Origin: a virus
Strand: one strand, 5' to 3'
IMG/VR virus record: IMGVR_UViG_3300022665_000158
Coordinates: 1-59,537 of that record
DNA: 59,537 nt
Within the stretch, counting starts at the first letter, position 1. Every line of letters begins with the position of its first letter. Position numbers and translations under genes: made by a program. Below, piece after piece: positions 4,437 through 48,801 of the stretch. Below the pieces are notes generated by a model. It saw only the letters and a program-made list of their open reading frames with translations. It searched no databases and had not been told where the DNA came from.

Positions 4437-6839
4437 GTGCTGGTGATATGGACGAACGCCACCGGCAAAGCCCTCAAGAAATCGGTCAGCGAACCGCTCA
4501 CCGCCCTCGGCGCCAAGTGGGAAGTGATCCCGGTCAGCCACATTCCCAAGGTGGCGCCCGGGGACGTCGTGCTCGCGATGGGGGTGCAAGCGCTTGCACG
4601 TCTGCAATCGTTCAAGATGGTCCCCAAGGGCCGCAGCATCAAGAGCGTCCGCGGGCAGTGCTTCACGGGGCCCAACACCGCGGCCAAGTTTCTGGTGACC
4701 TACGATCCGGGCCTCGTTCACCGCGAGCCCGATAAGGGGCCCATGATCAGCTGGGATGCCCGCCTCGCTCACCGCCTGTACACCACGAAAACGATGGTCC
4801 CCGAGGTCGGCGAGTACGAATGGGTGGATGACCTCAGCGCGCTGATCGCGCAGACGGATCGCCCCGGGCCCATATTCCTCGGCGTCGACGCGGAGACCGA
4901 GAATCTCTTCCCTCACTACCCGGAGCGGCAGATCGTCACCACGCAATGGGCGGTAAAGCCGGGCGAGGCTTACGTGGTCGACCACTTCACGAAGAACGGC
5001 GGCGAGTTGACCCCGTTGCTGCGCGAGCAAATGGAGTACCTGCTACACGAGCCCAAGTTCCGTGTATGGGGCGCAAACCTGAAGTTCGACTTGGGGTGGC
5101 TCCATTACAAATGGGGGCTTACGTGCTCGAATTTCACGTTCGACCTGCTCATAGCCGCGTCGCTGGTAGACGAGAACCGGGTCAACTCGCTGAATGCGCT
5201 GACGAAGGAACTCACCCCCACGCTGGGTGGCTACGATGACGAGTTCGAGCGGACCGCCGATAAGTCCGACATGGCCACGGAGCTGGCGAAAGATCGAGAC
5301 GGGTTCCTGATCTACTCGGGCGGGGATGCAGACGCCACCCTACGCAACGGGCTGAAGCTCCGGAAGATGCTCGCGAGCGACTACGCGCTGACTCGATTCT
5401 TCACGACGATTTCCATGCCGGCCGTGCGGGCCTTCGAGCGCGTCGAACAGCGGGGCGTGCTGGTAGACGTCGCCAAATACAAGGCGCTGGAGATCGAAGC
5501 CAAGGCGGAGCAGAAGCGGCTGACTACAGAGGCCTTCGCGCAGATCCCGCATACGATCAAGGCGAAGCACTACCCCAAGCTGAAGCTCTCGCGCGCGGCC
5601 CTGAAGATCGACTACCTGTTCGGACCGAACGGCCTGGGGCTGACCCCCACGGTCTCCACGGAGAAGACGAAGGACTACCCGCCCGACAAGCAGATTCCCT
5701 CAGTGTCGATCGACGACCATCTGTCCCAATTCGCGGACCACCCCGTGGCGGGTAAGTTCGTGAATTGCCTAAAGGACTTAGGGCAGGTTGAGAAGGTGCT
5801 GTCGACTTACATTGGGACGAAAGACGCGAAGGGCAACTACGTGAAGGGGTTTCTGTCTCACCTGAGGCCCGACAATCGGTTCCACCCGACCTACATGCTG
5901 TATGCCGGCGCTCTCTTCGAAGGCAAGAGCGACGTGGGCGGGACGGTCACCGGGCGCACGAGCGTCAAGAATCCCGCGATGCAGACCCTTCCGAAGCATT
6001 CCGACTGGGGCAAGAAGCTCCGCAAGTGCTACATCTCGCCGGAAGATATGGCGTGCTGGCAACTGGACTTCTCGCAGGGGGAGCTGCGCGTCGCCGCGTG
6101 CCTTGCGGACGAGAAAGACATGATCGCCGCCTACCGGGCCGGGGTCGATATCCACGCGAAGACCGCTGCGCGCATGATCGGCGTGCCGCTGGACGAGTTC
6201 ATGTCGTGGAAGAAGCACGTGGATCCGGAGATGCGAGCCAAGTACGCCAACGGCCGCCAAAAGGCCAAGGCTGTGAACTTCGGGCTCTTGTACAGCATGG
6301 GCGCCAAGGGGCTAGTGTCGTACGCATGGAAAAGTTACAGCGTCGTGTTCACACTGGCCGAGGCTCAGGAAACCCGAGACACGTTTTTCGAGACCTACCC
6401 AAAGCTGGAGGACTGGCACGAGAAGATGCGGATGCTGGCGCACAGGGACAAAGCCGTACGCTCCCCACTCGGGCGGATCCGCCACCTACCCCACATTGAC
6501 AGCACGGACAAGGCGACGGTCGGCCGGGCGGAACGGCAAGCGATCAACTCCCCGGTGCAATCCTGCCTCTCGGACCTGTGCCTGTGGGGATTGGTTGAAG
6601 TCGAGAAACGATTCGAGACGCGGCAAGAGCGCTTCCACACGGTGGGCATGACTCACGACAGTTTGAACGGCTACGGCCACGTGGACACGCTCGAAGCGGA
6701 TCTCGCTGAAGCTGCTAAAGTGGTGGAGGCGCTACCGATTCGCGACACGTTCGAATGGAATCACCAGATCCCGTTTCCGGTCGACGCCGAGATCGGGCCG
6801 ACCATGGGCGAGCTAGAGGAGTTTCCGATAGCCGCGTAG
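4437..6839 (+). CDS. Family A DNA polymerase with 3'-5' exonuclease domain
   Basis: This 800-residue enzyme is the phage replicative polymerase. Exonuclease motifs are present: GVDAETEN (DxE, near residue 150), NLKFD (near 215) and YSGGD (near 290). Polymerase motif A is DFSQGELR (near 543), where DYSQIELR is usual. Motif B is KAVNFGLLYSMGAKG (near 610), with YSMG in place of YG. Motif C is THDSLNG (near 738), where the usual Glu after HD is Ser. The first ~130 residues match no motif I know. The start is GTG. The 5' region carries a perfect copy of the 14-bp palindrome, encoding VQALA. A sliding clamp is encoded at 32131. Confidence 0.96.
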   Translation: MLVIWTNATGKALKKSVSEPLTALGAKWEVIPVSHIPKVAPGDVVLAMGVQALARLQSFKMVPKGRSIKSVRGQCFTGPNTAAKFLVTYDPGLVHREPDKGPMISWDARLAHRLYTTKTMVPEVGEYEWVDDLSALIAQTDRPGPIFLGVDAETENLFPHYPERQIVTTQWAVKPGEAYVVDHFTKNGGELTPLLREQMEYLLHEPKFRVWGANLKFDLGWLHYKWGLTCSNFTFDLLIAASLVDENRVNSLNALTKELTPTLGGYDDEFERTADKSDMATELAKDRDGFLIYSGGDADATLRNGLKLRKMLASDYALTRFFTTISMPAVRAFERVEQRGVLVDVAKYKALEIEAKAEQKRLTTEAFAQIPHTIKAKHYPKLKLSRAALKIDYLFGPNGLGLTPTVSTEKTKDYPPDKQIPSVSIDDHLSQFADHPVAGKFVNCLKDLGQVEKVLSTYIGTKDAKGNYVKGFLSHLRPDNRFHPTYMLYAGALFEGKSDVGGTVTGRTSVKNPAMQTLPKHSDWGKKLRKCYISPEDMACWQLDFSQGELRVAACLADEKDMIAAYRAGVDIHAKTAARMIGVPLDEFMSWKKHVDPEMRAKYANGRQKAKAVNFGLLYSMGAKGLVSYAWKSYSVVFTLAEAQETRDTFFETYPKLEDWHEKMRMLAHRDKAVRSPLGRIRHLPHIDSTDKATVGRAERQAINSPVQSCLSDLCLWGLVEVEKRFETRQERFHTVGMTHDSLNGYGHVDTLEADLAEAAKVVEALPIRDTFEWNHQIPFPVDAEIGPTMGELEEFPIAA
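4585..4598. repeat. 14-bp palindrome TGCAAGCGCTTGCA, copy 1
   Basis: Perfect inverted repeat, extending to 16 bp (GTGCAAGCGCTTGCAC, 4584-4599). It lies inside the DNA polymerase gene and is read as QALA. Confidence 0.9.
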
Positions 6840-6866
6840 GCTCTCTAGATCTGCTAGGATGCGAAG

Positions 6867-10483: not shown

Positions 10484-11170
10484 TTGTCCATCTACATCGT
10501 CCCCAGCGTATCCACGCCTGAGGTCGCCTACGAAGTCGATACCGAAAAACCGGCCTGTACTTGCCCATCATTTGCGCATAGCCGCGGCCGGCGCTGGTGT
10601 AAACATCTCACCATGGTGGAATCCCGCCCGGACCTGTACGCTTGCATCATACCGGGGCAGGCTGCGATTGGCCCGACGAAAGATGCGGGCCCCGGGCTCT
10701 TCACCATCGGGCATTCAAACCACTCGATAGAGAACTTCCTGTCGCTGCTACGGCAGCACCACATCCGGGCCGTGGTCGACGTTCGCTCGGCGCCCTACTC
10801 CCGCTACTCCCCTCACTTCTGCCGGGACGCCCTGAAGGAACACGTGCGCGGCGCCGGGATCGACTACTACTGGGCGGGGAAAGAGCTGGGGGGACGTGAC
10901 AAGATCCCCGTGGACTCGTCCGCCTTTACTGGAAGGATGTATCAAATCCTTGAGATGGCGGAGCGGATGCGCATCGCGCTCATGTGCTCGGAGGGCAAAC
11001 CCCAAGACTGTCACCGCGCGATGAAGCTCACCGCGTGGATCCATCGGGAGGTCTCGGGCTACGCCCGCCACATACTCCCGGACGGTACGCTCCTCAGCAG
11101 CGAGATCCTAGAGGCGAAGCAGGATGAGGATTGGTTGTGGAAAGACCTAGGGGGCAAGAATGGGCCCTAA
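10484..11170 (+). CDS. SWIM zinc finger-DUF488 fusion protein
   Basis: This 228-residue protein starts with TTG. The N-terminal ~45 residues carry a SWIM-type zinc motif, CTCPSFAHSRGRRWCKHL (CxC...CxH). From about residue 70 it becomes DUF488: GLFTIGHSN, VVDVRSAPYSRYSP, YYWAGKELGG and LMCSEGKPQDCHR, with the conserved CxE and Cys-His residues. DUF488 proteins are widespread, with no agreed biochemical role. The SWIM part suggests nucleic-acid or protein binding. It follows a promoter-like element and a Shine-Dalgarno hairpin, hinting at controlled expression. Confidence 0.85.
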   Translation: MSIYIVPSVSTPEVAYEVDTEKPACTCPSFAHSRGRRWCKHLTMVESRPDLYACIIPGQAAIGPTKDAGPGLFTIGHSNHSIENFLSLLRQHHIRAVVDVRSAPYSRYSPHFCRDALKEHVRGAGIDYYWAGKELGGRDKIPVDSSAFTGRMYQILEMAERMRIALMCSEGKPQDCHRAMKLTAWIHREVSGYARHILPDGTLLSSEILEAKQDEDWLWKDLGGKNGP

Positions 11171-11182
11171 CCCGGAGGTATC

Positions 11183-11368
11183 ATGACGATTACACCGCTC
11201 GAACGAATCATCGGCACGGTTGCCGGCACGGCGCCCCTAGTGGCGTCGGTCACTCTCGACAAGCATTTCGGTTTCGCGATCGGCACCGGGGTGTGGGGGC
11301 TGCTCATCCTAGCATGGGTGTGGAACCTACAGGCGCAGGCGAAGGCGAAGGGCGACGCGGAGAGCTAA
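11183..11368 (+). CDS. Small membrane protein, 61 residues
   Basis: GGAGGT precedes the ATG. There are probably two membrane segments, around GTVAGTAPLVASV and GVWGLLILAWVW, with a short charged tail. It is followed by two more small membrane proteins. This cluster would be a reasonable place for holin or spanin functions, but no family match is visible. Confidence 0.65.
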   Translation: MTITPLERIIGTVAGTAPLVASVTLDKHFGFAIGTGVWGLLILAWVWNLQAQAKAKGDAES

Positions 11369-11581
11369 GTGTCCGGTTTCCAACACATAATCGAACCCGA
11401 GCCGGATCCCGAGCCCGAGACCTACACGGCCGGGCCGCGTGGCAAGGCGACGATCATCCGCGGGCCGGGCAAGTGCAAGCGCTTGCACGCCGACTGGGTG
11501 TGGATTTTCCTAGGGGCACTGGCGGCAAGTGGGCTGGCTCTGGGCGGCGCCTCGCTGTTCCTACTGGCGACGTCGCGATGA
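11369..11581 (+). CDS. Small single-pass membrane protein, 70 residues
   Basis: The GTG start lies directly after the previous stop. A Pro/Glu-rich N terminus is followed by a basic stretch and a C-terminal hydrophobic helix (WVWIFLGALAASG onward). The basic stretch CKRLHA is encoded by a perfect copy of the 14-bp palindrome. Function unknown; it is coupled to membrane-protein genes on both sides. Confidence 0.6.
   Translation: MSGFQHIIEPEPDPEPETYTAGPRGKATIIRGPGKCKRLHADWVWIFLGALAASGLALGGASLFLLATSR
11474..11487. repeat. 14-bp palindrome, copy 2
   Basis: Perfect TGCAAGCGCTTGCA, extending to 16 bp (11473-11488). Inside a small membrane protein gene, read as CKRL. Confidence 0.9.
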
Positions 11582-11838
11582 CTTTCAACTGGGTGACGGC
11601 CACTACGATCTTCGTGGGCTACTGCGCACTGGATTGGCTTTATACGATTTACATCTTCGCCATTGCGGAGCGGCGGAAGCTGCTAGCGGCGAACATCGGA
11701 GCCGGTATCTACACGCTGAGCGCGTACGGCGTGGTCCACTACGTCGCGGATTGGCGCTATGTGGTTCCGATGATCGCGGGCGGGTGGCTGGGGACGTACT
11801 TGTCCGTGTGGCACCAGCAATGGAAGGAAGCGAAATGA
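11578..11838 (+). CDS. Small multi-pass membrane protein, 86 residues
   Basis: About three hydrophobic segments (TIFVGYCALDWLYTIYIFAI, IGAGIYTLSAYGVVHYVA, VVPMIAGGWLGTYLSV) cover nearly the whole protein, and the C terminus is charged. The start overlaps the previous stop (ATGA). A role in lysis or in modifying the host membrane is possible, but no family is recognised with confidence. Confidence 0.65.
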   Translation: MTFNWVTATTIFVGYCALDWLYTIYIFAIAERRKLLAANIGAGIYTLSAYGVVHYVADWRYVVPMIAGGWLGTYLSVWHQQWKEAK

Positions 11839-12970: not shown

Positions 12971-13370
12971 CGCTTGCGACACGTGCCGGGATCCGGGCTA
13001 CTGCTGCCGGAACTTCACGCTCAGCGTGATTTTCCCGGCGGAGATGCATAGGAAGGAAGTGAACAAACACATCGCGGAAGCGACGGACCCGTGGGACGGA
13101 GAGCGCGACTGGTTCGCGGAGAAGACGCCGTTCATGCACCCGATTCGGATCACGTCGCGGTACGCGTACCGCGGGCAGCACAAGCCGCACGGCGTGAAGT
13201 GGGGTTTCAGCTGCGATCGGCTGGGGGAGGACGGGCGGTGTATGCAGTACGAAGATCGGCCTACTATCTGTCGGTCCTACGAACCGAAGACCGATTTGCT
13301 TTGCATCGAATACGATGGTAACTACAAGGGCTACTTGACCCTGTACCGAGAGGAGAAGACCGATGACTGA
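12963..13370 (+). CDS. YkgJ-family cysteine cluster protein
   Basis: This 135-residue protein has CDTCRDPGYCCRNF at the N terminus and FSCDRLGEDGRCMQYEDRPTICRSYEP in the second half. That is the eight-cysteine pattern of the YkgJ/UPF0153 family, predicted to bind zinc or an iron-sulfur cluster. Its role in phages is unknown. It overlaps the genes before and after it by 8 bases each. Confidence 0.82.
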   Translation: MSSACDTCRDPGYCCRNFTLSVIFPAEMHRKEVNKHIAEATDPWDGERDWFAEKTPFMHPIRITSRYAYRGQHKPHGVKWGFSCDRLGEDGRCMQYEDRPTICRSYEPKTDLLCIEYDGNYKGYLTLYREEKTDD

Positions 13371-16233
13371 AATCAGCTATCGCGCGCGCGTGAGGGAATT
13401 GTCCGGGCAGGTTCACGAGCTGAAGCGGGATAACGAACACGCGGAGCGCACGATCGCGATGTTCGAAAGCGACCTCAAAACGACAGAGAACGCCGCCGTG
13501 GCCATGGAACGAGACCGCGACGAACTACTAGAGACCGTCAATCGGCACGGCTTGACGCCGCTCGGGGAATTGGAAGAGCAGATCCGACTGCTGAAGTTGC
13601 GGCTCGAAGCCAAGGAAGAGGACTTCGAACATCTCGACGTGTTGGCCGACGGCTACAAGGCGCAGCGCGACACGGCGCGGGCCGAGCTACTCGGCGAAGA
13701 GCTGTCCGATACCCAGATACTCGATCTGACGAACGAAGAGGCCGGGCCGGGCGCGCTGCCGGGTACCAAGCCGGTGACGCTCACGCAACCGGGCGAGGAG
13801 ATCGTCCCCTTCCACAGGGAGAAGAGCGGGAAGCTGGTGGCCGGCCACGGCCCTGGCCTGATCGGCGACCACCGCCGGGTCACCGAAGAGCGGGACGACG
13901 CGCGGCGCGCTCGGGACTTGACGCAATGCGAATGCAATCGCCTCACGGAGCAGCTGACCTACTGGGAGAACGTGGCGCCCAATACCCACCCCGAGCTGAT
14001 CGTCTCCACCCTCATGGAGGAGCGCGACGCGTTGCAGAGTGAGCTGGACAAGGCGGAGAACAGAGCCGAAACGATCAGGCTGGAGGGATTGCGAATCCGC
14101 CGATTCGCGGAGTTGGGGCTGGCCGATGCGCGGAACTCGAATAAAAGCCTGAGGGCGGTGATCACGGACTTACACGAAGTGAAGCAAGAGCGGGACGGCA
14201 ACGCGGAGTCGGTTCGGTTCAACGTCGAACGCGTGACCGACTTAGCCGAAGAACTGTCCGAAGTGAAGGCCCAGCGGAACGACAAGGACGTCGTCATCGA
14301 TGCCATGACCGCAAACGCGGAGACGTTGAAAGAGGACGCGGATAGGGCATGGGCTGCTCTGGAGCTATCCGAGGAGAAGCTGGTGGCCACGGAGACCGCC
14401 CTGGAGCTGGCCATCAAGAAGCTGGCGACCCTCGACACCCCAGAGCCGGACCCGGATCCCGATGACGACCCCGAGGATGACCCGACCTCGCCCACGGGCG
14501 GCGCCGGGGGCGGCGACGGATCCACTGGTGGCTCACCTCTGCGAGATGCCATCGCGGAACGCTCTGAGGCGATCGCGGCCGAACAAGTCGCGGCAGCGGG
14601 AAGCCCCCTGAAGATCAAGACCCTTGCGGGACCGGGGCCACGAATCGAAAGCGACGAGGCGGCACCGGAAGCCCCCGAGAAACCCACAACGCCGGGGGCA
14701 CGGCTGCCCGTGGACGCCCCGCCGCTCGACAAGTTCGGGGATGGATTCGTTTGCCGGCTCGGCTACGACTACGGCGAGGAGATATTCTTCGACAGATCGC
14801 GGCCCGTAGAGGGAGAACTGCACGCTGACGGCGGCCCTCTGTACGAAGAATGCGAACCCACAGACGTCGTGGCCGACCTCGAACACCTACTCGGGGAAAC
14901 GCAAATAGGATTGAACGCGGCATCCGCGGAGAACACGGACCTGCACGTGGAGATCACGGATCAGCAAGGGACGATCGCGGACCTGAGGGAGACCATCGAC
15001 ACCTACGAAGTGATGGAGGAAGAGCGAGCCGCGAGCCTATACGCTCAAGTCGCGGACGCCGAGAACGACCGTGAGCGCTTGCACGAGAGTCTGGTGATCC
15101 AGAAAGCCCTGACTGAGGACCGACTCGCCGAACAGCGGCTACTACAGCGAGAGCTGCGGGCAGCGGAGAGGAAGTGCGACGCGTACCAGCTTGAGGTGAT
15201 CACGAGCGACGGTATACTGAACACCGCGGTAACCGAGTTGTCCGAAGAGCGTAGTAAAACCGCGCACTTACGGTCACGCTTGCATCAAGCCATCAAGCAC
15301 ATCGACGATATCACCGCGGCGATCTGCGACGATACCCCCACCCCCCCGAGACCGGGAGGTCTGATCGATGCGGACGATGACGATGAGGAAGAATCAGAGG
15401 CGGAAGCGAGAGCGATGCTCGCGCACTACCGGACACAATTCGTCCGGCTGGCGGAGACGAAGCTCGCATTGGAGAAGCAAGTCGACGAACTACAGGCGAA
15501 ACTCGCTCCCGAAAGTTCGCGCATCGAGTTGGACGAACAGGCCTCCAGGGACGACTTTCAGGGTATACCGCGCGGGCCGACCGATGAGAGCCTAGGCACC
15601 GTGATCGCGGATGCTGTGCTGGACAACGTTGTCGAGGTCTCACGGGAATCGATCGAGACCGGCACGCGGGACGCCACTTTCGCGGAGCAGGTGACCGGCG
15701 ACGCTGAGGAAGAGGCCGGGCCGACGAAGCTGCACGACAGGCACAAGGTGGTAGCGACGGCAATGGATATCCTGAAGCGCGCGAAGTCGCGAGAGCCGCG
15801 AAAGCGTGAATCGGCCGGGATGGAGAATGCCGCGGCGAAGCTGGGGATCACGCCCGAGAAGGTGGTCGAGGTGGGCGTGTCGCTTCTGGAGGCCGCGCCG
15901 GCGCAAGAGCGCATCGTAACGGTTGACGATATCGCGGAGGCCATCGGCGCCAAGATCGTAATGCCGGAGACGAAGATGACGATCACCGGGTCGGTCGCGG
16001 AGATGGACGCAAATGCAAGCGCTTGCACTCGGGTATGGATTGCCCCGGCGGGCGCCTGCCCGGCTCTGGTGAGCGATTCCCACGGCTTCGCGGAACGGGC
16101 TCCAGCGCCCGGATTCTTCCCCGCCCCTTACTGCCCCGCGTGCAACCAAGATTTCGTGGCAGGAGAGCGCCCTGTGGACCCAGACAGGGCATATGTGACG
16201 GTCGAAGAGTCGCGGAGGATGACGGGATCATGA
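13363..16233 (+). CDS. Very long coiled-coil protein, 956 residues
   Basis: This is the second-longest protein here and resembles no named family I know. Residues ~1-355 and ~500-760 are rich in Glu, Arg, Leu and Ala with heptad-like spacing (for example RDELLETVNRHG, ELDKAENRAETIRLEG), indicating long coiled coils. They are separated by an Asp/Pro/Gly-rich linker (near residues 360-390). A Cys-containing tail (YCPACNQDF) may bind zinc. It is not the tape measure, which is at 52874, and it lacks hydrophobic stretches. It may be a scaffold for a phage-built intracellular structure. A perfect palindrome copy lies near its 3' end. Confidence 0.8.
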   Translation: MTEISYRARVRELSGQVHELKRDNEHAERTIAMFESDLKTTENAAVAMERDRDELLETVNRHGLTPLGELEEQIRLLKLRLEAKEEDFEHLDVLADGYKAQRDTARAELLGEELSDTQILDLTNEEAGPGALPGTKPVTLTQPGEEIVPFHREKSGKLVAGHGPGLIGDHRRVTEERDDARRARDLTQCECNRLTEQLTYWENVAPNTHPELIVSTLMEERDALQSELDKAENRAETIRLEGLRIRRFAELGLADARNSNKSLRAVITDLHEVKQERDGNAESVRFNVERVTDLAEELSEVKAQRNDKDVVIDAMTANAETLKEDADRAWAALELSEEKLVATETALELAIKKLATLDTPEPDPDPDDDPEDDPTSPTGGAGGGDGSTGGSPLRDAIAERSEAIAAEQVAAAGSPLKIKTLAGPGPRIESDEAAPEAPEKPTTPGARLPVDAPPLDKFGDGFVCRLGYDYGEEIFFDRSRPVEGELHADGGPLYEECEPTDVVADLEHLLGETQIGLNAASAENTDLHVEITDQQGTIADLRETIDTYEVMEEERAASLYAQVADAENDRERLHESLVIQKALTEDRLAEQRLLQRELRAAERKCDAYQLEVITSDGILNTAVTELSEERSKTAHLRSRLHQAIKHIDDITAAICDDTPTPPRPGGLIDADDDDEEESEAEARAMLAHYRTQFVRLAETKLALEKQVDELQAKLAPESSRIELDEQASRDDFQGIPRGPTDESLGTVIADAVLDNVVEVSRESIETGTRDATFAEQVTGDAEEEAGPTKLHDRHKVVATAMDILKRAKSREPRKRESAGMENAAAKLGITPEKVVEVGVSLLEAAPAQERIVTVDDIAEAIGAKIVMPETKMTITGSVAEMDANASACTRVWIAPAGACPALVSDSHGFAERAPAPGFFPAPYCPACNQDFVAGERPVDPDRAYVTVEESRRMTGS
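16014..16027. repeat. 14-bp palindrome, copy 3
   Basis: Perfect TGCAAGCGCTTGCA near the 3' end of the coiled-coil gene, read as NASAC (the third reading frame). Confidence 0.9.
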
Positions 16234-16538: not shown

Positions 16539-16790
16539 ATGGGTATCAAGATTGAAGCAATCGAAGAGAAACGCGTGTTCGATATCTACTTGGGCACGAT
16601 GGGTGTGGGTAGGGTTTCGGTAGAAACTACTGATGACGACCTGCCCTGCTTAGCTGAATACGACGACAGCCAAGGGCTGTTGATTGAATTGGGATGGTTT
16701 AAAACAGTGAAGCAGGCTGGCCAAGCCCTTATTCGACGACACTGCGGAGAGGGAGACGTAGACGAAGTGAAAAGGATAAAAGCCCCATGA
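16539..16790 (+). CDS. Unknown small protein, 83 residues
   Basis: GAAGGAG lies five bases before the ATG. The protein is acidic and probably alpha/beta. The gene and its leader are lower in GC than their neighbours (a T6 run at 16521-16526), which may mark a recent arrival. It overlaps the RNA ligase start by 4 bases. Function unknown. Confidence 0.65.
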   Translation: MGIKIEAIEEKRVFDIYLGTMGVGRVSVETTDDDLPCLAEYDDSQGLLIELGWFKTVKQAGQALIRRHCGEGDVDEVKRIKAP

Positions 16791-17794
16791 GCTTCAGAAA
16801 ATACGATCATGTGGAACGCCTCGGGAATGAAGAGGTTGAGGGGATCGACTTGGGGGAGGTCTACGTGTTCCCCAAACTGGACGGCACCAACGCCAGCGTG
16901 TGGATTGACTACCCAATGCTGGAGGACGGTAGCCTCGCCGCCCCCTATGTGGGATGCGGTAGCCGCACGCGGGAGTTGAGCGATGAGAACGATAACGCCA
17001 ATTTCTATCGCTGGGTGAACAATGACGACACGTGGCCGCTGTGGCAGGGGCTCATAGGGCACGAGGGTGCCCTGTGGACGCTGTACGGTGAGTGGCTGGT
17101 AACCCACACCCTGAAGACCTACCGATCGGACGCGTGGCGCCGATTCTGGGTGTTCGACGTCTACGACAATCAAGAGCAGCGCTACCTGCCCTATGACCGG
17201 TACGCCCCCACCCTGAATCAGATCGGGTTCGACGTGATCGAGCCCCTGTGCATTATCACGAATCCGACCGAGTTGCAGCTGCGCCAAGAGGTGGAGCAGA
17301 ACACCTATCTGATCTACAACGGCGGCGGGGCGGGCGAGGGCATCGTCATCAAGAACTACGCGTGGACGAATAAGTACGGCCGCCAGCCGTGGGCCAAGAT
17401 CGTCCGCAACGAATTCAAGGAAGAGAACAAGCGCGCTTTCGGCGTGACCGAGAAGACCGGCGAGTTCCAAGTCGAGGCCGCCATCGCCGAGACGTACGTG
17501 ACGCAGGCGGTCGTCGGGAAGGCGCTGGACAAGATCGAGCGGGACGTGTTGAACAATCACGATTTCGGCATACAGGATTGCAGCGTACCTAACCAGATTG
17601 CGCGTACGAAAGCGGTGCTCGAAGGGGCGCGGCCTCAGATCATCCCGCGCCTACTCCAGACCGTGTTCTACGACCTGATCCGCGAAGACCTGTGGGACGG
17701 ACTGAAACGCTACCAGTTTCCGACGGTTGACTTCACCCGCCTGAGACGCCATGCTGTGCTGCGGACGAAGCGATTCGCTCCCGACCTTTTCTGA
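16787..17794 (+). CDS. RNA ligase, Rnl2 type
   Basis: This 335-residue nucleotidyltransferase joins RNA ends using ATP. Motif I is KLDGTN with the AMP-accepting Lys30. Further motifs are GSRTREL (near 58), YGEW (near 100), FWVFDVY (near 120), GEGIVIKN (motif IV, near 183) and WAKIV (motif V, near 202). The C-terminal ~120 residues are a helical extension. In T4-like phages such ligases repair tRNA cut by host anticodon nucleases. A phage tRNA-Asn lies 3 kb downstream, but no Pnkp-type end-healing partner was recognised here. Confidence 0.92.
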   Translation: MSFRKYDHVERLGNEEVEGIDLGEVYVFPKLDGTNASVWIDYPMLEDGSLAAPYVGCGSRTRELSDENDNANFYRWVNNDDTWPLWQGLIGHEGALWTLYGEWLVTHTLKTYRSDAWRRFWVFDVYDNQEQRYLPYDRYAPTLNQIGFDVIEPLCIITNPTELQLRQEVEQNTYLIYNGGGAGEGIVIKNYAWTNKYGRQPWAKIVRNEFKEENKRAFGVTEKTGEFQVEAAIAETYVTQAVVGKALDKIERDVLNNHDFGIQDCSVPNQIARTKAVLEGARPQIIPRLLQTVFYDLIREDLWDGLKRYQFPTVDFTRLRRHAVLRTKRFAPDLF

Positions 17795-20769: not shown

Positions 20770-20845
20770 TCCCTGGTAGCTCAGCTGGAAGAGCGAGCGG
20801 CTGTTAACCGCTAGGTCGCAGGTTCAAGTCCTGCCCGGGGAGCCA
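20770..20845 (+). tRNA. tRNA-Asn (anticodon GTT)
   Basis: A complete cloverleaf is visible. The acceptor stem is TCCCTGG with CCGGGGA, the D arm contains GCTCAGCTGG, and the anticodon stem is AGCGG/CCGCT around CTGTTAA with anticodon GTT. The T arm is GCAGG TTCAAGT CCTGC. The CCA end is encoded (20843-20845). The acceptor stem has one G-U pair. It is the only tRNA found. A 14-bp palindrome copy lies 13 bases after it. Confidence 0.95.
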
Positions 20846-20858: not shown

Positions 20859-20872
20859 TGCAAGCGCTTGCA
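20859..20872. repeat. 14-bp palindrome, copy 4
   Basis: Perfect core, extending to 18 bp (AATGCAAGCGCTTGCATT, 20857-20874). It lies between tRNA-Asn and the next gene, so this copy is probably non-coding. Confidence 0.92.
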
Positions 20873-21849: not shown

Positions 21850-23055
21850 ATGGATTCCCTCCACATCGAAGAGCGCCCGGTCGGCTCTCTTACGCCGTAT
21901 TCGAGGAATGCGAGAACCCACTCCGAGAAACAGATCCAACAGATCGCGGCCTCAATCAAGACGTTCGGCTTCACGAACCCCATTCTCATCGATGCGGCTG
22001 GGATAATCATCGCTGGCCACGGGCGGCTGCGCGCTGCCCAGCAGCTAGGGATGGAGACGGTCCCGACGATCTGCCTCAAGCACCTATCCGAGCAGCAAGC
22101 CCGTGCCCTCGTGATCGCCGATAACAAGCTCGCCGAACTCGCAGGGTGGGATGAGGATATGCTCGCGCTTGAGCTACAGAGTCTCACAGAGATGGCGCTG
22201 GAGATGGATCTTGATTTCGATTTGAGTGTCATTGGCTTTGACGAGGGCGAGCTTGAACGGCTGCTTCAGCAGGAGCATGAAGGCGCGATCGATGACGATG
22301 ACGTACCCAGCGATATCGAGAAGCGCTGCAAGGTGGGCGATCTGTGGAAGCTCGGTGATCACCGCCTGCTGTGCGGGGATGCGACGAAGGCCGAGGATGT
22401 GGCCCGCTTGCTCAACGGCGAGAAGGTCGATCTTGTGTTCACCGATCCGCCCTACGGCATGGGACTGACGCCGGTCAAGAATTACGCCTCGAAGAAGGAA
22501 CGCAAAAAGCGCGAGGAGTACGAGCCGGTTCTCGGCGATGACAAACCATTCGACGCTAGCGTACTCGTGTCGATGATCGATTGCGATCGCTGGTACATAT
22601 GGGGCGCAGACTACTTCCTTTCCTCGATTCCGAACTACACGGACGGCAGCCTAATCGTGTGGGCGAAGCGCATGAGCGAGGAAGAGAGCGACAAGGTATT
22701 CGGCAGCGCATTCGAGATCTGCTGGACGCTACCGAGAACGAAGAAGGTGATCTGGTTCGAACGGGCAATCAACCAGTCGTCGGAACGGCTCGGGCTGCAT
22801 CCGACCCAGAAGCCGACCGCCCTCGCCATTCGTGCATTCGAGAGGAGTTCCAAGCGCGGCGCACTTGTCGTAGACCTATACGCGGGAAGCGGAACGACGA
22901 TCATCGCGGCCGAGAAATATGATCGCCGCTGCTTCGCAATGGAAATCTCCCCCGAATACTGCGATGTGATCCTGCAACGTTGGGAGCGGTTCACCGAGCG
23001 CAAGGCGGAGATCGTGACGGAGCACCTAGACACAGAGGAGAAGGCCGATGGCTAA
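21850..23055 (+). CDS. ParB-domain DNA methyltransferase
   Basis: This 401-residue two-domain protein begins with a ParB/Srx-like domain (residues ~1-110, with GHGRLRAAQQLG). The second domain is an amino-methyltransferase of the permuted beta type, with TDPPYG (catalytic motif IV, near residue 198) ahead of the SAM-binding DLYAGSGTT (motif I, near 340). It should methylate adenine N6 or cytosine N4 in phage DNA, protecting it from host restriction or marking it for packaging. No restriction partner is seen. It is followed by genes leading to the terminase. Confidence 0.93.
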   Translation: MDSLHIEERPVGSLTPYSRNARTHSEKQIQQIAASIKTFGFTNPILIDAAGIIIAGHGRLRAAQQLGMETVPTICLKHLSEQQARALVIADNKLAELAGWDEDMLALELQSLTEMALEMDLDFDLSVIGFDEGELERLLQQEHEGAIDDDDVPSDIEKRCKVGDLWKLGDHRLLCGDATKAEDVARLLNGEKVDLVFTDPPYGMGLTPVKNYASKKERKKREEYEPVLGDDKPFDASVLVSMIDCDRWYIWGADYFLSSIPNYTDGSLIVWAKRMSEEESDKVFGSAFEICWTLPRTKKVIWFERAINQSSERLGLHPTQKPTALAIRAFERSSKRGALVVDLYAGSGTTIIAAEKYDRRCFAMEISPEYCDVILQRWERFTERKAEIVTEHLDTEEKADG

Positions 23056-37386: not shown

Positions 37387-37739
37387 CCGAATTCCCCACG
37401 AAGAAAGGAATGACTCTACGGCGTTTCGCGCACAAGATGCATTTCGTCTGCACGTGCTGCGACGGCTCGAAGTATTCCAAGTTCCGAGCCGATACGCCCG
37501 ACGGCGTGATCTGCAATCGCTGCTACGGGCGGAAGTTACAGGGCGCCCCGCCGGTGAAGGAAGCAGAGGCCCCTCTCGTATTGAGCGGGACGGTAACCGG
37601 GCGCACTGCGAGCGGGAAGTTGCCTGTGCTACAGATCAAGTTCAATCGCACGCCCCCGCAAATGGGCCTGCGCGGATGCAAGCGCTTGCATTTGACTTCG
37701 GGCAAATGCGGAAAGGAGTTCGGATGCGAATCAGGCTAG
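37383..37739 (+). CDS. Zinc-ribbon protein, 118 residues
   Basis: GAGGAG precedes ATG 37383. CTCC and CNRC (near 22-47) form a likely zinc ribbon. The 3' end, encoding GCKRLH, carries a perfect palindrome copy, and the last residues overlap the next gene. Function unknown. Confidence 0.65.
   Translation: MTEFPTKKGMTLRRFAHKMHFVCTCCDGSKYSKFRADTPDGVICNRCYGRKLQGAPPVKEAEAPLVLSGTVTGRTASGKLPVLQIKFNRTPPQMGLRGCKRLHLTSGKCGKEFGCESG
37677..37690. repeat. 14-bp palindrome, copy 7
   Basis: Perfect core, extending to 16 bp (ATGCAAGCGCTTGCAT, 37676-37691). Near the 3' end of the zinc-ribbon gene, read as CKRL. Confidence 0.9.
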
Positions 37740-38248
37740 TTATCGACCTCATGTACCCGGGCGTGACGTCCGCGGCGGACGAAGAGCTAATAAAGCACCG
37801 ACTGTCGGCGCAGGTACTGGCCGCGGCGCGGACGAAGCAATTCAACGTGCTGGCGCAGGACGAGCGGGAGACGATCAAGGTGGAGGAGATCATGGTCGGC
37901 TGTGCCCGGGTGGAGGACACGGAGCCCGTGGTGGCCACGCAGACCGTAGACCCGGGGCTCCCGGAACATCGGGTGAGTCCCTGTGACTGTGACGAGGATC
38001 CCCACGTCTACGGGGACGAAGACGGGGATTACTGGTTTGCCTCCGGCCACCTAACGGTGGACGAGATGACGGCCGCGGTACTCGCCTGGGAGGCTGAAGT
38101 AGCCGACGAGATACCGTCCGGGGATGTGAATCGGCTCACTCACTCCCACTACTTCGTGATAGAAGACCCGGAGAACAGCGAGATGTACAAGCTCGTCGAG
38201 GGCGATGTTCAAGGGGCGCAGCCCATGACGAGCATTCGGAGGGCGTAA
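37724..38248 (+). CDS. Unknown acidic protein, 174 residues
   Basis: AAAGGAG precedes ATG 37724. An N-terminal alpha/beta part is followed by a very acidic middle (CDCDEDPHVYGDEDGDYWF). No family recognised. Confidence 0.65.
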   Translation: MRIRLVIDLMYPGVTSAADEELIKHRLSAQVLAAARTKQFNVLAQDERETIKVEEIMVGCARVEDTEPVVATQTVDPGLPEHRVSPCDCDEDPHVYGDEDGDYWFASGHLTVDEMTAAVLAWEAEVADEIPSGDVNRLTHSHYFVIEDPENSEMYKLVEGDVQGAQPMTSIRRA

Positions 38249-39369: not shown

Positions 39370-39636
39370 ATGGCGTTCCGTAACCTCGCCATCGCGAGCC
39401 ACGTGGAAGACGTCGCCACGACATGGGCCCGCGAAATGAACGAAGCGATCGAAGCGTCTCGAATGACACGGCGCCGGGTGAGCATCAAGGCCGGGCACGA
39501 CAAGGGTTGGGCATCTCGGCAACTGACTCGCGGCCGTAACTTGCGACTACGCAATATGGCGAGACTGGCGTACGCGGCCGGCTACCGCCTCAGAGTGACT
39601 CTGGAGAGAATCGAGTGCGATGACCCAGTTATATGA
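39370..39636 (+). CDS. Helix-turn-helix DNA-binding protein, 88 residues
   Basis: The segment MNEAIEASRMTRRRVSIKAG, then GWASRQLTRGRN and ARLAYAAGYRLRV, has the layout of a Cro/CI-type (XRE) HTH. It is a candidate transcription regulator, and the only clear Cro/CI-type HTH protein seen here. It starts one base after the previous stop and overlaps HNH copy 2 by 17 bases. Confidence 0.7.
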   Translation: MAFRNLAIASHVEDVATTWAREMNEAIEASRMTRRRVSIKAGHDKGWASRQLTRGRNLRLRNMARLAYAAGYRLRVTLERIECDDPVI

Positions 39637-40075
39637 CCGCCTGTGTAAGCGCTTGCAGGTCATACCCAATGGCTGTTGGGAGTGGCAGGGGTACTGCATT
39701 TCCGACGGTTACGGGCAGATTACTGTGGACGGGGCGCCGAAGCGTGTCCATCGTGTGATGTTTGAGGAGATGGTCGGACCGATTCCCGAAGGGATGTGCG
39801 TACTACACTCTTGCGACAACCCACCATGCGCAAACCCCGCCCATCTGTGGTTAGGGACGCACGCCGATAACATGGCGGATCGGGACGCGAAAGGCCGACA
39901 AGGGGCTGCGAGGGGCGAGAAAAATGGAAGATCCAAATTGACCTGGGAGCAGGTTGAGGCAATTCGAATGGATACCCGTTTACAATATGTAATCGCCTCT
40001 GACTACGGGGTGAGCTACCAGTTAATTTCGAAGATTAAAGCCAAGAAGTATTGGAAGGAGCCAAAATGCGAATAG
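39620..40075 (+). CDS. HNH homing endonuclease (copy 2)
   Basis: This 151-residue protein has the same layout as the gene at 86: GCWEWQGY, HRVMFEEMVGPIPEG, VLHSCDNPPCANPAHLWLGT, DRDAKGR, then an HTH-like end (VIASDYGVSYQLISKIK). Near its start, RLCKRL is encoded by a palindrome copy with one mismatch. It is inserted between the HTH gene and a RapZ-like gene. Its last codons (TGG AAG GAG) act as the Shine-Dalgarno of the latter. Confidence 0.92.
   Translation: MTQLYDRLCKRLQVIPNGCWEWQGYCISDGYGQITVDGAPKRVHRVMFEEMVGPIPEGMCVLHSCDNPPCANPAHLWLGTHADNMADRDAKGRQGAARGEKNGRSKLTWEQVEAIRMDTRLQYVIASDYGVSYQLISKIKAKKYWKEPKCE
39644..39657. repeat. Palindrome copy with one mismatch
   Basis: TGTAAGCGCTTGCA, one base off the 14-bp palindrome, at the 5' end of HNH copy 2. 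Confidence 0.75.
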
Positions 40076-41101: not shown

Positions 41102-42664
41102 ATGGCTACTGGTTTGCGTTGTGAGTATTGCGGGTCGACGGACACACAGCGCAGGGGCACCCGAAACGGGAAACTGCGGATCCACTGCAACGGCTGCCTC
41201 AAGAATCCCACCATCCCCGTACCCGAGGTCACCGATGCGGACCTCGACTTCACACCGACGAAGAAAGCGATCGACAAACTCACCAGCAAGAAGTACCACC
41301 TAATCACGTCCGCCCAGAACAACACACCGATCGACAAGAACGTGTGGCGTACGATCCTCCGAATGAAAGAGGAAATGGGCGCGTCGCTGTACGTGCTCCC
41401 CACCCTCTACAAGAACCCGACGAGCCGGCTTGACCCGCAGGCAGAGGACGACGGGGTGTGGTACCCCGCGGAAGTACTGCCTTATTTGGTCGAGGGCGAC
41501 ATACGGTTGCACCAGCATCTACGGATCCTGGGGCACGTGCGCATTCAAGCTACGGCCGCGAGCCCACTCACGGGGCTGGAGGGAATCAGCCAGTCGCAGT
41601 CGGGTATCGTTGGCCATGCCCAGATCCAAATGCGCGTGATCGCGACGCCGCAACGCTCGCTCCCCAAGATGATGATTACAACGGGCAGTGTCAGCAAGAA
41701 GAACTACTCCAAGACGAAGGCGGGGATCAAGGCCGACTTTCACCATAGTGCCGGCGTGGTTGTGGTAGAAATTCAAGATAAGGGCATCTTCCATATGCGG
41801 AGCTGCGTAGCCGATTCCAAGGGGACGATCTGCGACCTCGACAAGTGGTACTCGCCTACGGGCGTGAAGCCCACGGGCCGATGGCCGGCGCTGATCGTCG
41901 GGGACGAGCACGCGCTATTCGCCGACCCGTCTATCAAGGCGGCCACCTACACGGACGTGGCGAGCATGACCGCGATCGGGCGCCCCAAGGTGATCGTCCG
42001 GCACGACATTCTCGATTCCTACGCGGTGTCGCACTGGCACAAGCACAACGTGCTGACCCGCTATGTGAAATCCCAGAAGGGGTTCGACTCGCTCACCCAG
42101 GAGATGGCGCTGACTTATCAACACGTGGACGAGACCACGCCGCCCAACACTCAGAACCTCATCGTCGCCTCGAATCATGACGACCACGTGTGGCGGTGGA
42201 TGAACGAAGTGGAGTGGCGAAACGATCTATCGAACGCCCAGGTCTACCATGAGCTGTGGGCCGAGGTACTGGCACAGGCGGAATGGGATCCCAGCTACGG
42301 TGCCGCGGACCCGGAGTCGCCCTTCGCTTTGTGGGCTAGCAAGAGAATGGTGAGCAACACGCGATTCCTGAAGCGCGATGAGAATCGGACCATCATGGGG
42401 ATCATTGTCTCGCTGCACGGCGACCGGGGCCCGAACGGCGCCTGGGGCTCCATCGTCAACCTGTCGAAGATGGGCGTGAAGGCGGTCATCGGACACACAC
42501 ACACGCCGGGGGTCGAGAAGGGCTGCTATCAAGTGGGCGTGTCGACCGGCACCCTCAGCTACGCGAGGGGCTCGCCGTCCTCATGGCTCCCATGCAATTG
42601 CGTAATACAACCAAATGGTAAGAGGCAACTTGTGCCGATCATCAATGGCCGATATTGTGCCTGA
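41102..42664 (+). CDS. Zinc-finger metallophosphoesterase, 520 residues
   Basis: The N terminus has a transposase-like zinc finger, CEYCGSTDTQRRG...KLRIHCNGC. From about residue 255, calcineurin-like metallophosphoesterase motifs appear in order: VGDEHALF, SNHDDHVWRWM (GNHD-like) and, near residue 460, VIGHTHTP (GHxH). The fold may be a nuclease (SbcD/Mre11-like) or another phosphodiesterase. The zinc finger suggests DNA binding. A long middle region (~60-250) is unassigned. Its 3' end is overlapped by 20 bases by HNH copy 3. It has its own sigma70-like promoter. Confidence 0.85.
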   Translation: MATGLRCEYCGSTDTQRRGTRNGKLRIHCNGCLKNPTIPVPEVTDADLDFTPTKKAIDKLTSKKYHLITSAQNNTPIDKNVWRTILRMKEEMGASLYVLPTLYKNPTSRLDPQAEDDGVWYPAEVLPYLVEGDIRLHQHLRILGHVRIQATAASPLTGLEGISQSQSGIVGHAQIQMRVIATPQRSLPKMMITTGSVSKKNYSKTKAGIKADFHHSAGVVVVEIQDKGIFHMRSCVADSKGTICDLDKWYSPTGVKPTGRWPALIVGDEHALFADPSIKAATYTDVASMTAIGRPKVIVRHDILDSYAVSHWHKHNVLTRYVKSQKGFDSLTQEMALTYQHVDETTPPNTQNLIVASNHDDHVWRWMNEVEWRNDLSNAQVYHELWAEVLAQAEWDPSYGAADPESPFALWASKRMVSNTRFLKRDENRTIMGIIVSLHGDRGPNGAWGSIVNLSKMGVKAVIGHTHTPGVEKGCYQVGVSTGTLSYARGSPSSWLPCNCVIQPNGKRQLVPIINGRYCA

Positions 42665-43094
42665 GAAACGCGGGCCTAAGCCGATCCCCTTGATTGAGCG
42701 CTTGTGCAAGCGCTTGCATGTAGCCCCCGGTGGTTGTTTGGAATTCCAAGGCTACCGGGACAAGGGCGGGTATGGGAGAATTGGTGAGGGGGGCTACAAC
42801 TGCAAGAAAATCCTCACCCATCGGGTGGTATGGGAGGATGCGTTCGGTCCGATCCCCGCCGGCTTTTGTGTCCTCCATCGGTGTGATAACCCGCCTTGCT
42901 GTAACCCGTGGCACTTGTTCCTGGGGACGCGTGGGGACAATGCGGCCGACCGGGACGCCAAGGGGCGGACGCACAAGAAACTAACCCGGGAGCAAGTCCA
43001 AGCGATACGGGCAGATGGCCGGGTGCAGCGCATTGTCGCCCTTGATTTTGGAATCCATCAAGCTACGGTATCGCGAATTCGGAGGATTGCATGA
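42645..43094 (+). CDS. HNH homing endonuclease (copy 3)
   Basis: This 149-residue protein is of the same family as copies 1, 2 and 4: GCLEFQGYRDKGGYG, HRVVWEDAFGPIPAG, VLHRCDNPPCCNPWHLFLGT, DRDAKGR, and an HTH-like C terminus. It begins inside the last codons of the metallophosphoesterase gene. RLCKRLH at residues ~18-24 is encoded by a perfect 14-bp palindrome. The end supplies CGGAGG for the next gene. Confidence 0.92.
   Translation: MADIVPEKRGPKPIPLIERLCKRLHVAPGGCLEFQGYRDKGGYGRIGEGGYNCKKILTHRVVWEDAFGPIPAGFCVLHRCDNPPCCNPWHLFLGTRGDNAADRDAKGRTHKKLTREQVQAIRADGRVQRIVALDFGIHQATVSRIRRIA
42705..42718. repeat. 14-bp palindrome, copy 8
   Basis: Perfect TGCAAGCGCTTGCA in the 5' part of HNH copy 3, read as CKRL. 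Confidence 0.9.
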
Positions 43095-43276
43095 GTTGCC
43101 CCGACTGCGAGATCGACTGGGCGGCGGTAGCGCGGCTGGCCTACGGGTCGATTCCCAAGGATGGGCCCTTGATGACCGGGAAGCAGATTCAGCGGTTAGC
43201 TCTCCGGACCATTGAGGACGCACTGAAAATACCCACGCTACTCGGAGACCGAAATGGGACGCCACGCGGTAGCTGA
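43091..43276 (+). CDS. Unknown small protein, 61 residues
   Basis: It starts in an ATGA overlap with HNH copy 3. CPDC near the N terminus is followed by a helical region. It overlaps the protease gene by 23 bases. Function unknown. Confidence 0.6.
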   Translation: MSCPDCEIDWAAVARLAYGSIPKDGPLMTGKQIQRLALRTIEDALKIPTLLGDRNGTPRGS

Positions 43277-43871
43277 TCTGCTTAGCGCCATGTTCGAGTA
43301 CGGCATCGACCTCGCCAAGCGGCGGGTATTCCTACAGTGCGGGATCGAGGAGCACACGAACCCCGGCCAGAACATCGCGGAGCTGGTGACCCGAGGGCTC
43401 CTATTCCTAGACAAGACCGAGGGCGAGATCGAGTTGTGGATCAACACGCCGGGCGGGGACGTCGATGATATGTTCGCCATCTACGACGTGATCCAGTCGT
43501 GTGAGAACGACATTGTGACGGTCGGGCACGGGCAGATCGCCTCCGCGGGGGGCTTGATCCTCGCCGCCGGGTCGAAAGACCTTCGCTACGCCACCGCCAA
43601 CGCCGAGTTCATGTGCCACGAATTCCAAGACGGGGTCACTTCCCGCGGCACCCGGCTCCAGAAGATCCACTTGGAGCAGAAGGAACGGCTCGAAGAGAAG
43701 TGGGCCAAGCTCATGGGGCGCGCGAGCGGGCGCAAGCGGACCGCCGCTTTCTGGCTCAACAAGATACAGACCGAGCCGGAGTACTGGCTGGACGCCAAGG
43801 GCATGAAAACTCACGGTGTGGTTGACTGCGTGTGGCCGCCGGATCCGGACGATGAGGACGAAGACGAGTAG
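43254..43871 (+). CDS. ClpP-like prohead maturation protease
   Basis: This 205-residue serine protease has a ClpP fold. IELWINTPGGDVDDMFAIYD (near 59-78) is the oligomer/oxyanion region. GQIASAGGLILAAG places the catalytic Ser at residue 97, and EFMCHEFQDG gives His122. The C-terminal EPEYWLDAKGMKTHGVVD is the usual family ending, and a very acidic tail follows. Phages use such enzymes to cleave scaffold and capsid precursor. Position just ahead of XkdF-like, scaffold and capsid genes supports this. Confidence 0.9.
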   Translation: MGRHAVADLLSAMFEYGIDLAKRRVFLQCGIEEHTNPGQNIAELVTRGLLFLDKTEGEIELWINTPGGDVDDMFAIYDVIQSCENDIVTVGHGQIASAGGLILAAGSKDLRYATANAEFMCHEFQDGVTSRGTRLQKIHLEQKERLEEKWAKLMGRASGRKRTAAFWLNKIQTEPEYWLDAKGMKTHGVVDCVWPPDPDDEDEDE

Positions 43872-43882: not shown

Positions 43883-43896
43883 TGCAAGCGCTTGCA
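43883..43896. repeat. 14-bp palindrome, copy 9
   Basis: Perfect core preceded by AAA (AAATGCAAGCGCTTGCAC). Intergenic, between the protease gene and the LAGLIDADG gene. Confidence 0.9.
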
Positions 43897-46562: not shown

Positions 46563-46589
46563 GGGAGCGGGGCTACGCTTTGCAATGAC

Positions 46590-46603: not shown

Positions 46604-46634
46604 ACGAACAGTTTCCTGAGGGGGGAATGGAACG

Positions 46635-47642
46635 ATGGCTTCAAACAGACAACTCGTCGAAAAGGCTGACTTCGCAAATGCCGATCTGGTAACAGCGGGT
46701 CTAGTCAATCCGGAGCAAGCGAACCGCTTCTTCCGTCGACTGATCAACGAGCCCACGATGCTCCGCGACATTCGCTCGGTAGAGATGGATTCGCCCACGC
46801 GAAACATCAATCGCCTCCAGTTCAACAAGAGAATCCTCCGTGCCGGTACCAGCGCAGTCGCGCTCGACACCGCCGCGGCTGCTTCTTCGGCCCCGTTCGA
46901 TCCGATCGCGGAAAACACGAGCCGAGGCAAGCCCGAGACCTCGCAGGTCGTTCTCAACACCACGGAAGTCATTGCGGAAGTCGACCTTCCCTATGACGTG
47001 ATCGAAGACAACGTGGAGCTGGGGAACATCGGCGAGATGCGCGACGTTGGCGGCGCCCCTGCGGGCGGCGGCTTCATCGACACCGTCTTGGAGTTGATGG
47101 CAGAGCGCGCGGCGCTCGACCTCGAAGAGCTGCTTCTGCTCGGCGACGTCGACCTGGGTGCGGCCGATACCTACCTCGACCTTCAGGACGGCGTTCTGGA
47201 GATCGTTCGGGACGGCGGAAACATCAACGACGAGGTCGGGGCACTCGTGTCCAAGACCACATTCAAGAATGGCAAGAAAACCATGCCGGATCAGTACCTC
47301 AGGAACATCAATTCCATGAGGCACTACATCTCGCACGATCAGGAGACGGAGTACAGGGACACGGTCGCAGACCGCGCCACTGGCTACGGTGACGCGACCT
47401 TGCAGGGCGATGCCCCGCTGCGCGCGTTCGGTTCCGCGGTCGTAGCGAATGCCACGATCCCCGACGATGAGGGGCTCTTCACGAACCCCCAGAACATCAT
47501 CTGGGGCTTGCAGCGGAAGATGCTGCTGGAGTGGGATAAGCTGATTCGCGAGCGGGTGCTGCTGATCGTTCTCTCGGCGCGAGTCGCCGTGCAGGTTGAG
47601 GACGCGGCGGGCGCGGTAATCCACACAAACCTGGGCGTCTAG
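46635..47642 (+). CDS. Major capsid protein
   Basis: This 335-residue protein in the capsid position has features of HK97-fold major capsid proteins: a helical N-arm, LLRDIR-like strand region (MLRDIRSVEMDSP), a long helix with ERAALDLEELLLLGD (near 155-170), YLDLQDGV, and a C-terminal beta region (NPQNIIWGLQRKMLLEWDK). It is preceded by GAGGGGGGAATGG and followed by a strong terminator, as expected for the most abundant protein. Assignment rests on position and pattern. Confidence 0.9.
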   Translation: MASNRQLVEKADFANADLVTAGLVNPEQANRFFRRLINEPTMLRDIRSVEMDSPTRNINRLQFNKRILRAGTSAVALDTAAAASSAPFDPIAENTSRGKPETSQVVLNTTEVIAEVDLPYDVIEDNVELGNIGEMRDVGGAPAGGGFIDTVLELMAERAALDLEELLLLGDVDLGAADTYLDLQDGVLEIVRDGGNINDEVGALVSKTTFKNGKKTMPDQYLRNINSMRHYISHDQETEYRDTVADRATGYGDATLQGDAPLRAFGSAVVANATIPDDEGLFTNPQNIIWGLQRKMLLEWDKLIRERVLLIVLSARVAVQVEDAAGAVIHTNLGV

Positions 47643-47674
47643 TAGCGAGGCCCAAATGACAGCGAAGTGATTTG

Positions 47675-47707: not shown

Positions 47708-47741
47708 CATTGAGACACGACTCCCACGGAGGGATGCCAAG

Positions 47742-48050: not shown

Positions 48051-48053
48051 CAA

Positions 48054-48779
48054 ATGCCGTTGATCCGGAGCGTGGAGAGTACGCGTGAGCGTCTCGGGTT
48101 CGGTGTCGATGCTGACCGCGATGCGGCTTTCGAGTCTCATCTTGAAACTGCCGTCGAGACGATTTCCGATCGAATACGTAGCGAACTGACACGCGTGGAC
48201 GTGATAGACACGTTTTTCGTGAGGTTCACGCTACGATCGCCGATCGGCACGGGGGGCCGGAAGCGGCCTGCGACGTCCAGAAACACGGGCATCGCGGTTG
48301 CGGGCTCCTCTACGACCACGCTCCTGCTCAGCCGGGGTTTCGTGTCCGATATTGGTTCCGGAATGACGATTTTCGCCGCCGGGACGGAGGACGCGCTGGA
48401 CGACTCGGCGGTACGCTCCGACCTGAAGTCCGTATCCTCCATCGACCACACCCTGATTGAGGCCGAGCGCGGCGTCGTGCGGGTGCAGGACTTCGGGCTG
48501 GACGGCGTCTACGTGCGGGTCAGCTACCGGGCGGGCTTCTTGGACGACGGCGCTACGCCTGCCGTATTCCAGAGCACGCCGGATTGGCTGGTACGGGCGA
48601 ACGACTTGGAGACCCGTATCCTCGTGAATTCGGATGCGGTGTTCGGGCGCGACAAAGTCGAGAAGGATGAGCAAGACCGGCTGGAGATGCGGTTGAACAG
48701 CATCCTCTACAAGCACGCCCGTTACATCCCCACCGCGGAGAAGCCGATCCACAGCGTGGAAACCGCCTCATCCATATAA
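48054..48779 (+). CDS. Probable head-tail connector (neck) protein, 241 residues
   Basis: It follows the capsid genes and precedes tail-completion genes, the usual place for a head-tail adaptor. The N-terminal helix (FESHLETAVETISDRIRSEL) and later WLVRANDLETRILVNSDAVFG are consistent with an adaptor-like helical bundle with a beta insert. The family assignment is tentative. Confidence 0.6.
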   Translation: MPLIRSVESTRERLGFGVDADRDAAFESHLETAVETISDRIRSELTRVDVIDTFFVRFTLRSPIGTGGRKRPATSRNTGIAVAGSSTTTLLLSRGFVSDIGSGMTIFAAGTEDALDDSAVRSDLKSVSSIDHTLIEAERGVVRVQDFGLDGVYVRVSYRAGFLDDGATPAVFQSTPDWLVRANDLETRILVNSDAVFGRDKVEKDEQDRLEMRLNSILYKHARYIPTAEKPIHSVETASSI

Positions 48780-48787
48780 GGGGGTCG

Positions 48788-48801
48788 TGCAAGCGCTTGC
48801 A
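48788..48801. repeat. 14-bp palindrome, copy 10
   Basis: Perfect core, extending to 16 bp (GTGCAAGCGCTTGCAC, 48787-48802). Just upstream of ATG 48811, or read as QALA if GTG 48787 is the start. Confidence 0.9.

Follow-up and report, generated by a model that had tools for sequence, protein, structure and literature searches.

Iterated palindromes have been described in phage genomes before. In the cluster O mycobacteriophages (Corndog), the palindrome TGTTCGG-N3-CCGAACA occurs in 34 copies to which no function has been assigned (PMC4351075). This is the closest published parallel that we found: there too an invariant palindrome recurs along the phage genome, both inside genes and in short gaps between them, but the sequence differs from ours, the layout is 7+3+7 as compared to 6+2+6, and the hosts are mycobacterial. 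A literature search for the 14-mer reported here returned no paper. The stoperators of cluster A mycobacteriophages likewise serve a single phage protein at many scattered positions; they are 13 bp long, asymmetric and oriented with transcription, whereas the sites described here are perfect palindromes. HIP1, to which the 14-mer had been likened, is also a highly iterated palindrome but a host-genome feature of cyanobacteria, and the bacterial genomes we sampled hold single copies of the 14-mer.

ParB-type proteins offer a further comparison. Noc with its NBS sites and ParB with parS (Spo0J, Caulobacter ParB) join a ParB-type helix-turn-helix (HTH) DNA-binding domain to 2-fold symmetric palindromes, and the NBS sites are dispersed as the phage sites are; in the candidate phage protein discussed below, the HTH is a predicted one. 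The parS and NBS sites are 16 bp long as compared to 14 bp, and unlike the phage sites in sequence; we detected no CTP-binding domain in the phage protein, and the phage sites evenly cover a small genome. Within ParB and Noc domains, a few residues can switch specificity (PMC7383237). KorB of RK2 is a ParB-type repressor acting from dispersed operators on a mobile replicon (PMC11790492). Its DNA-binding domain is among the structural matches of the phage protein model, but KorB has a partner, KorA, and a CTPase clamp domain that was not detected in the phage protein. We know of no report of even spacing for KorB operators.

The stretch analysed here, a window of 59.5 kb, is a fragment of a tailed-phage genome with DNA polymerase A, portal, terminase, capsid and tape measure genes, and part of it gave no match by megablast against phages. 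By direct search it holds ten exact copies of TGCAAGCGCTTGCA and one copy with a single mismatch (TGTAAGCGCTTGCA, at 39644), all where the original prediction had placed them. Chance had been expected to give essentially none, and Markov chains of order 1-5 indeed predict 0.0002-0.012 copies. Among palindromes of at least 12 bp in the window the 14-mer alone recurs, every other one occurring at most once.

The copies (listed without strand) are distributed as follows. The first exact copy (4585-4598) lies within the DNA polymerase A gene (4437-6839) and is read as QALA, the second (11474-11487) is in or near the start of an ORF at 11131-11838, and the third (16014-16027), read as NASAC, is within a long ORF (13363-16233). 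Another exact copy (20859-20872) stands 13 bp past a tRNA-Asn gene (20770-20845) and ahead of an ORF at 21042, followed by one (23873-23886) between the end of ORF 23048-23794 and ORF 24024. At 27357-27376, at the start of ORF 27346-27600 and again read as NASAC, an exact core (27360-27373) sits in a symmetry that reaches 20 bp (AAATGCAAGCGCTTGCATTT), an extension that had been correctly noted. The next exact copy (37677-37690) lies in ORF 37454-38248, just upstream of an in-frame RBS and ATG at about 37724. The one-mismatch copy (39644-39657) and the exact copy at 42705-42718 are each found at the N-terminus of an HNH endonuclease gene (39620-40075 and 42615-43094, respectively) and read as CKRL. 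The last two exact copies lie 11 bp past the stop codon of a protease gene (43883-43896; gene 43254-43871) and at the junction of ORF 48054-48779 with the next gene, which starts at GTG 48787 or ATG 48811 (48788-48801). Genic copies are thus read in three frames, as first claimed.

The two HNH genes are paralogous, with the copies at an equivalent position and the peptide RLCKRL at both N-termini, so that these two copies are not fully independent; nine remain without them. A third HNH gene (56186) also encodes RLCKRL, but its DNA there is TGCAAGCGGCTGCT. The window's four HNH genes (the two above, 86-541 and 56186-56629) have a common N-terminal KRL motif, which reads RLQKRL in the first and RLCKRL in the other three, with the palindrome in frame in two and diverged in one. 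Complete relatives are about 80-100 kb long and the window is a fragment, and the full genome should therefore carry more copies. Among its other genes are a ParB-like N-terminal domain fused to a DNA methyltransferase (phrog_498; 21850-23055), possibly a modification enzyme; a homologue of the phage T5 A1 DNA transfer protein (41102-42664), found also in many unrelated phages and in a Xanthomonas jumbo phage; and an RNA ligase gene (16787-17794), which together with the tRNA-Asn gene perhaps points to a link with tRNA repair.

Selection on the sites was assessed by comparing the relative DLP5 with DLP3 (17.4% divergent) and Summit (10.0%). Between DLP5 and DLP3, one of 103 third codon positions inside sites had changed as compared to 305 of 1007 in the flanks (P=3.5e-14), and between DLP5 and Summit none of 108 as compared to 198 of 1035. 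The palindrome arms were intact in 28 of 30 cases for DLP3 and 30 of 30 for Summit, versus 19% and 40%, respectively, of same-phase neighbouring 14-mers. The palindromes, almost unchanged, are under strong selection acting on the DNA. The earlier claim that selection is on DNA and not on protein is borne out, since conservation of the sites far exceeds what the synonymous rate would give, and both outcomes that the original prediction had named as counting against it went the other way: the palindromes are not lost at the synonymous rate, and Markov models do not account for their number.

Starting from the major capsid protein (phrog_1623; gene at 46635-47642, + strand, outside the repeat), a search for the phage family led us to fetch 80 loci together with named phages. 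The cultured relatives are phages of Pseudomonas, Stenotrophomonas, Rhizobium, Agrobacterium, Rhodobacter and Vibrio. Several viral contigs scanned for the 14-mer have 3-7 copies, and many of the contigs that bear it encode distant homologues of window proteins. Relatives as distant as 25-62% in protein identity have about 8-47 sites, either TGCAA-N4-TTGCA or a different palindrome with the 6+2+6 layout. For instance, PaMx31 (Samunavirus, P. aeruginosa) has the exact 14-mer seven times and TGCAA-N4-TTGCA (TGCAARCGYTTGCA-type) 30 times, and TGCAAT-N2-ATTGCA occurs 27 times in DLP5, 26 times in phage set G060 and 47 times in G057, and is also present in G054 and G065. By classes assigned from counts in the genomes, the palindrome would be of the TTGCAAACGTTTGCAA type in JP1 (33 copies), TGCAATCGATTGCA in RcTiptonus (19), CGACCCCGGGGTCG in G051 (24), GCACTNNAGTGC in G052 (19) and G072 (11), TGCAGTNNACTGCA in G059 (14), GTGCAAYAWRTTGCAC-like in TM16 and Y1_11, TGATCTTGAGATCA in G058 and TTTGACCACGTGGTCAAA in G063; SIO-2 has degenerate sites only, 26 of them within one mismatch of GCAATNNATTGC as compared to 2.8 expected. 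The iterated palindrome is a family trait. The site sequence itself turns over, since G051, the window's nearest relative by core genes, has another palindrome, and phages that share the palindrome of the window are more distantly related to it. Two variants were also seen: G064 (L302-L304) iterates another motif, an imperfect one (TTTGATACTAAGRTCAAA) that may belong to the same system but with the spacer lengthened, and L088 has a longer perfect palindrome (at least 58 bp) centred on the 14-mer, possibly an assembly artefact.

Sites are concentrated between genes, with 22 of 33 intergenic in JP1 (6% expected), 15 of 30 in PA_L9 and 9 of 31 in DLP5, where expectation is 4-8% overall; many lie 1-7 bp past a stop codon or 8-25 bp ahead of a start. 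Strong -10 hexamers are mildly enriched next to them (8 of 33 in JP1 as compared to about 4 expected, 3 of 31 in DLP5 and 3 of 30 in PA_L9). A promoter-linked operator was considered and set aside: JP1 was positive with TANNNT, a pattern confounded by stop codons, and the stricter -10 match left a weak signal. The coefficient of variation of spacing is mostly 0.4-0.7, versus about 0.95 for random placement (combined P ~5e-20, 18 phages), G065 and RcZahn being exceptions, and in three annotated phages the spacing is still even when the gap structure is kept (P=2-4e-4). Such regularity suggests a structural role across the whole genome, and not one tied solely to promoters.

As for the protein that reads the sites, co-occurrence and predicted fold make the near-universal family phrog_17202, a protein of unknown function (DLP5_067 and homologues; in DLP5 at L239:7752-8564), the most likely candidate. 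It was found in 25 phage sets, and only the window and G067 are without it among the longer ones; the gene follows those for RecA, a Cas4-like exonuclease and RuvC in a replication-recombination module. G066 encodes phrog_17202 and has no clear palindrome, and G067 has neither the protein nor the sites; both contigs may be incomplete. Loci fetched by phrog_17202 profile scans, which used narrower alignments than the 24-row set, mostly have TGCAA-N4-TTGCA-type sites nearby, often degenerate. No reader had been seen in the window, and the phrog_17202 gene is indeed not found in this genome fragment; its presence in relatives offers a partial explanation, that part of the genome lying outside the fragment. 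Two other DLP5 genes, the ParB_N gene DLP5_107 and the ParB-like DLP5_003, were rejected as readers, the family of each being missing from several palindrome-bearing phages. In PaMx31 (L235:8319-9668) and RcTiptonus (L265:8031-9326), which form a subgroup in this respect, the candidate has alanine-, proline- and lysine-rich tails like those of histone H1-type proteins.

In phrog_17202, the substitution K116R is found in both G052 and G072, which lie on different branches and have both moved to GCACTNNAGTGC. Where the GCAA core of the site has been lost, 7 of 9 proteins have R116, as compared to 0 of 41 others. Column 116 was picked after looking, independent changes are few and only two independent pairs are on well-supported branches, so this covariation of residue and site is suggestive only. 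The predicted recognition helix hardly varies even between phages whose palindromes differ, and it did not stand out when mutual information was computed between the columns of the protein and the half-site class.

AlphaFold models of the G041 protein, whose phage has the window's palindrome, and of DLP5_067 both have confident helical cores. The top VIA-align rows for the two models are the DNA-binding domains of ParB, Spo0J, Noc and KorB (Z 8.9, 8.8 and 8.7 for one model and 9.8, 9.2, 9.0, 8.0 and 6.8 for the other), together with Raf1; by match these scores include Spo0J-parS (9.8), ParB-parS (9.2, 8.8), Noc-NBS (9.0, 8.7) and KorB-operator (6.8), and the best unrelated fold reached 4.2 or 3.9. 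It is the predicted structure that places a ParB-type HTH DNA-binding domain in phrog_17202; sequence searches found no relative in the PDB. Foldseek alone gave no significant PDB match. Raf1 is a Rubisco assembly protein, so the fold alone does not prove DNA binding, and with helical models a Z of 8-10 can arise from nothing more than a common arrangement. No Pfam hit to the ParB_N CTPase domain was obtained in 24 members, and a crude scan for CTPase motifs found little: G024, PaMx31 and L386 alone matched, and only by the loosest of three patterns. As the CTPase domain was not found and palindrome binding is a prediction, we do not file phrog_17202 as a full ParB.

The explanation that we consider probable, though well short of assured, is that the palindromes are dispersed sites akin to parS, NBS or KorB operators for phrog_17202 as a candidate CTPase-less ParB-type protein, which would organise, partition or silence the phage genome. 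The original idea of a dispersed protein-binding site for genome organisation is thus still the best reading, without the host protein that it allowed as reader. On this model the palindrome would be an evenly spaced, sequence-specific site for a protein encoded by the phage family, a phrog_17202 dimer would bind the 2-fold symmetric 14-mer, and with one site per ~2-6 kb the protein might mark or coat the whole genome in the manner of Noc at NBS sites or KorB at RK2 operators. The genome might as a result be organised for segregation as a plasmid prophage, silenced, or kept orderly in replication or recombination. We infer both the binding and its effect. A phagemid prophage state has been reported for DLP5 (PMC5834331) and is presumed for DLP3 lysogens (PMC7326821), a lifestyle that fits partition or prophage silencing; since UF_RH6, another family member, has been called lytic (PMC10281142), partition cannot be the sole role.

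Alternatively, a phage repressor might use the palindromes as operators or stoperators and keep transcription from starting or elongating throughout the genome, as in cluster A mycobacteriophages; this repressor might be phrog_17202, acting mainly in silencing, or another HTH protein (MerR-like DLP5_060/JP1_076 or XRE-like JP1_104). DLP3 and DLP5 are temperate (PMC7326821, PMC5834331), HTH proteins are encoded in the phages, and sites cluster in gaps just ahead of genes, all of which would suit a repressor; we nevertheless regard it as unlikely, given that many sites lie a few bp past a stop codon within co-directional gene runs, that the enrichment of strong -10 hexamers is only mild, that the symmetric sites are evenly spaced over structural and other genes, and that the MerR-like family is not common to all members. 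Rather less probable still is that the sites are self-DNA marks for replication, recombination or packaging, serving as Chi-like marks or roadblocks read by a module containing phrog_17202. The position of its gene after the RecA, Cas4-like and RuvC genes would agree with this, as would even spacing over the whole genome, but Chi-type marks are asymmetric and oriented, unlike perfect palindromes.

A host protein, whether of LacI/GalR type or of a nucleoid or methylation system, might instead read a palindrome that the phage has borrowed. In favour of this, the 14-mer looks like an operator of the LacI family, and many bacteria have it in a single copy. Single copies are also almost all that the bacterial genome scan gave among the matches listed, and eight bacterial genomes of 2.7-7.1 Mb have one copy each, so that the sampled genomes are not enriched; moreover, RcZahn and RcTiptonus infect one Rhodobacter host strain and carry different palindromes, and JP1 and TM16, whose hosts are related, likewise differ from each other. 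These observations make a host reader very improbable and indicate that the reader is probably phage-encoded, and the proposed likeness to a host-read or HIP1-like element finds no support in the genomes sampled. The suggested LacI/GalR operator fares no better: in relatives the layout is kept but the palindromes are unrelated, promoters are missing at most sites, and no LacI-family repressor was found among the 30 proteins scanned in the window, itself a genome fragment. Chance, coding constraint or an RNA hairpin is scarcely credible, for although two of the copies are in HNH genes that encode a common CKRL peptide, this account is already contradicted by a Markov expectation below 0.02 and by frozen third positions, and the use of three frames and a centre that is palindromic too, which an RNA loop does not need, also speak against it.

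Returning to phrog_17202 as the candidate reader, we advance more tentatively, as a proposal about as apt to fail as to hold and perhaps slightly more so, that a CTPase-less ParB-type protein and ~10-50 evenly spaced palindromes form a widespread means of marking whole tailed-phage genomes, with the specificities of site and protein drifting together by lineage, and act as a phage nucleoid or as a segregation system that works without a sliding clamp. The iterated palindromes of Corndog were left without explanation in the paper describing them (PMC4351075), and the same design recurs here in phages of many Proteobacteria, cultured ones included, with a candidate reader. If our reading is true, a near-universal protein of unknown function would gain a function, the principle of ParB, Noc and KorB would extend to whole phage genomes, and the family would provide natural site-protein pairs for studying the evolution of DNA specificity.
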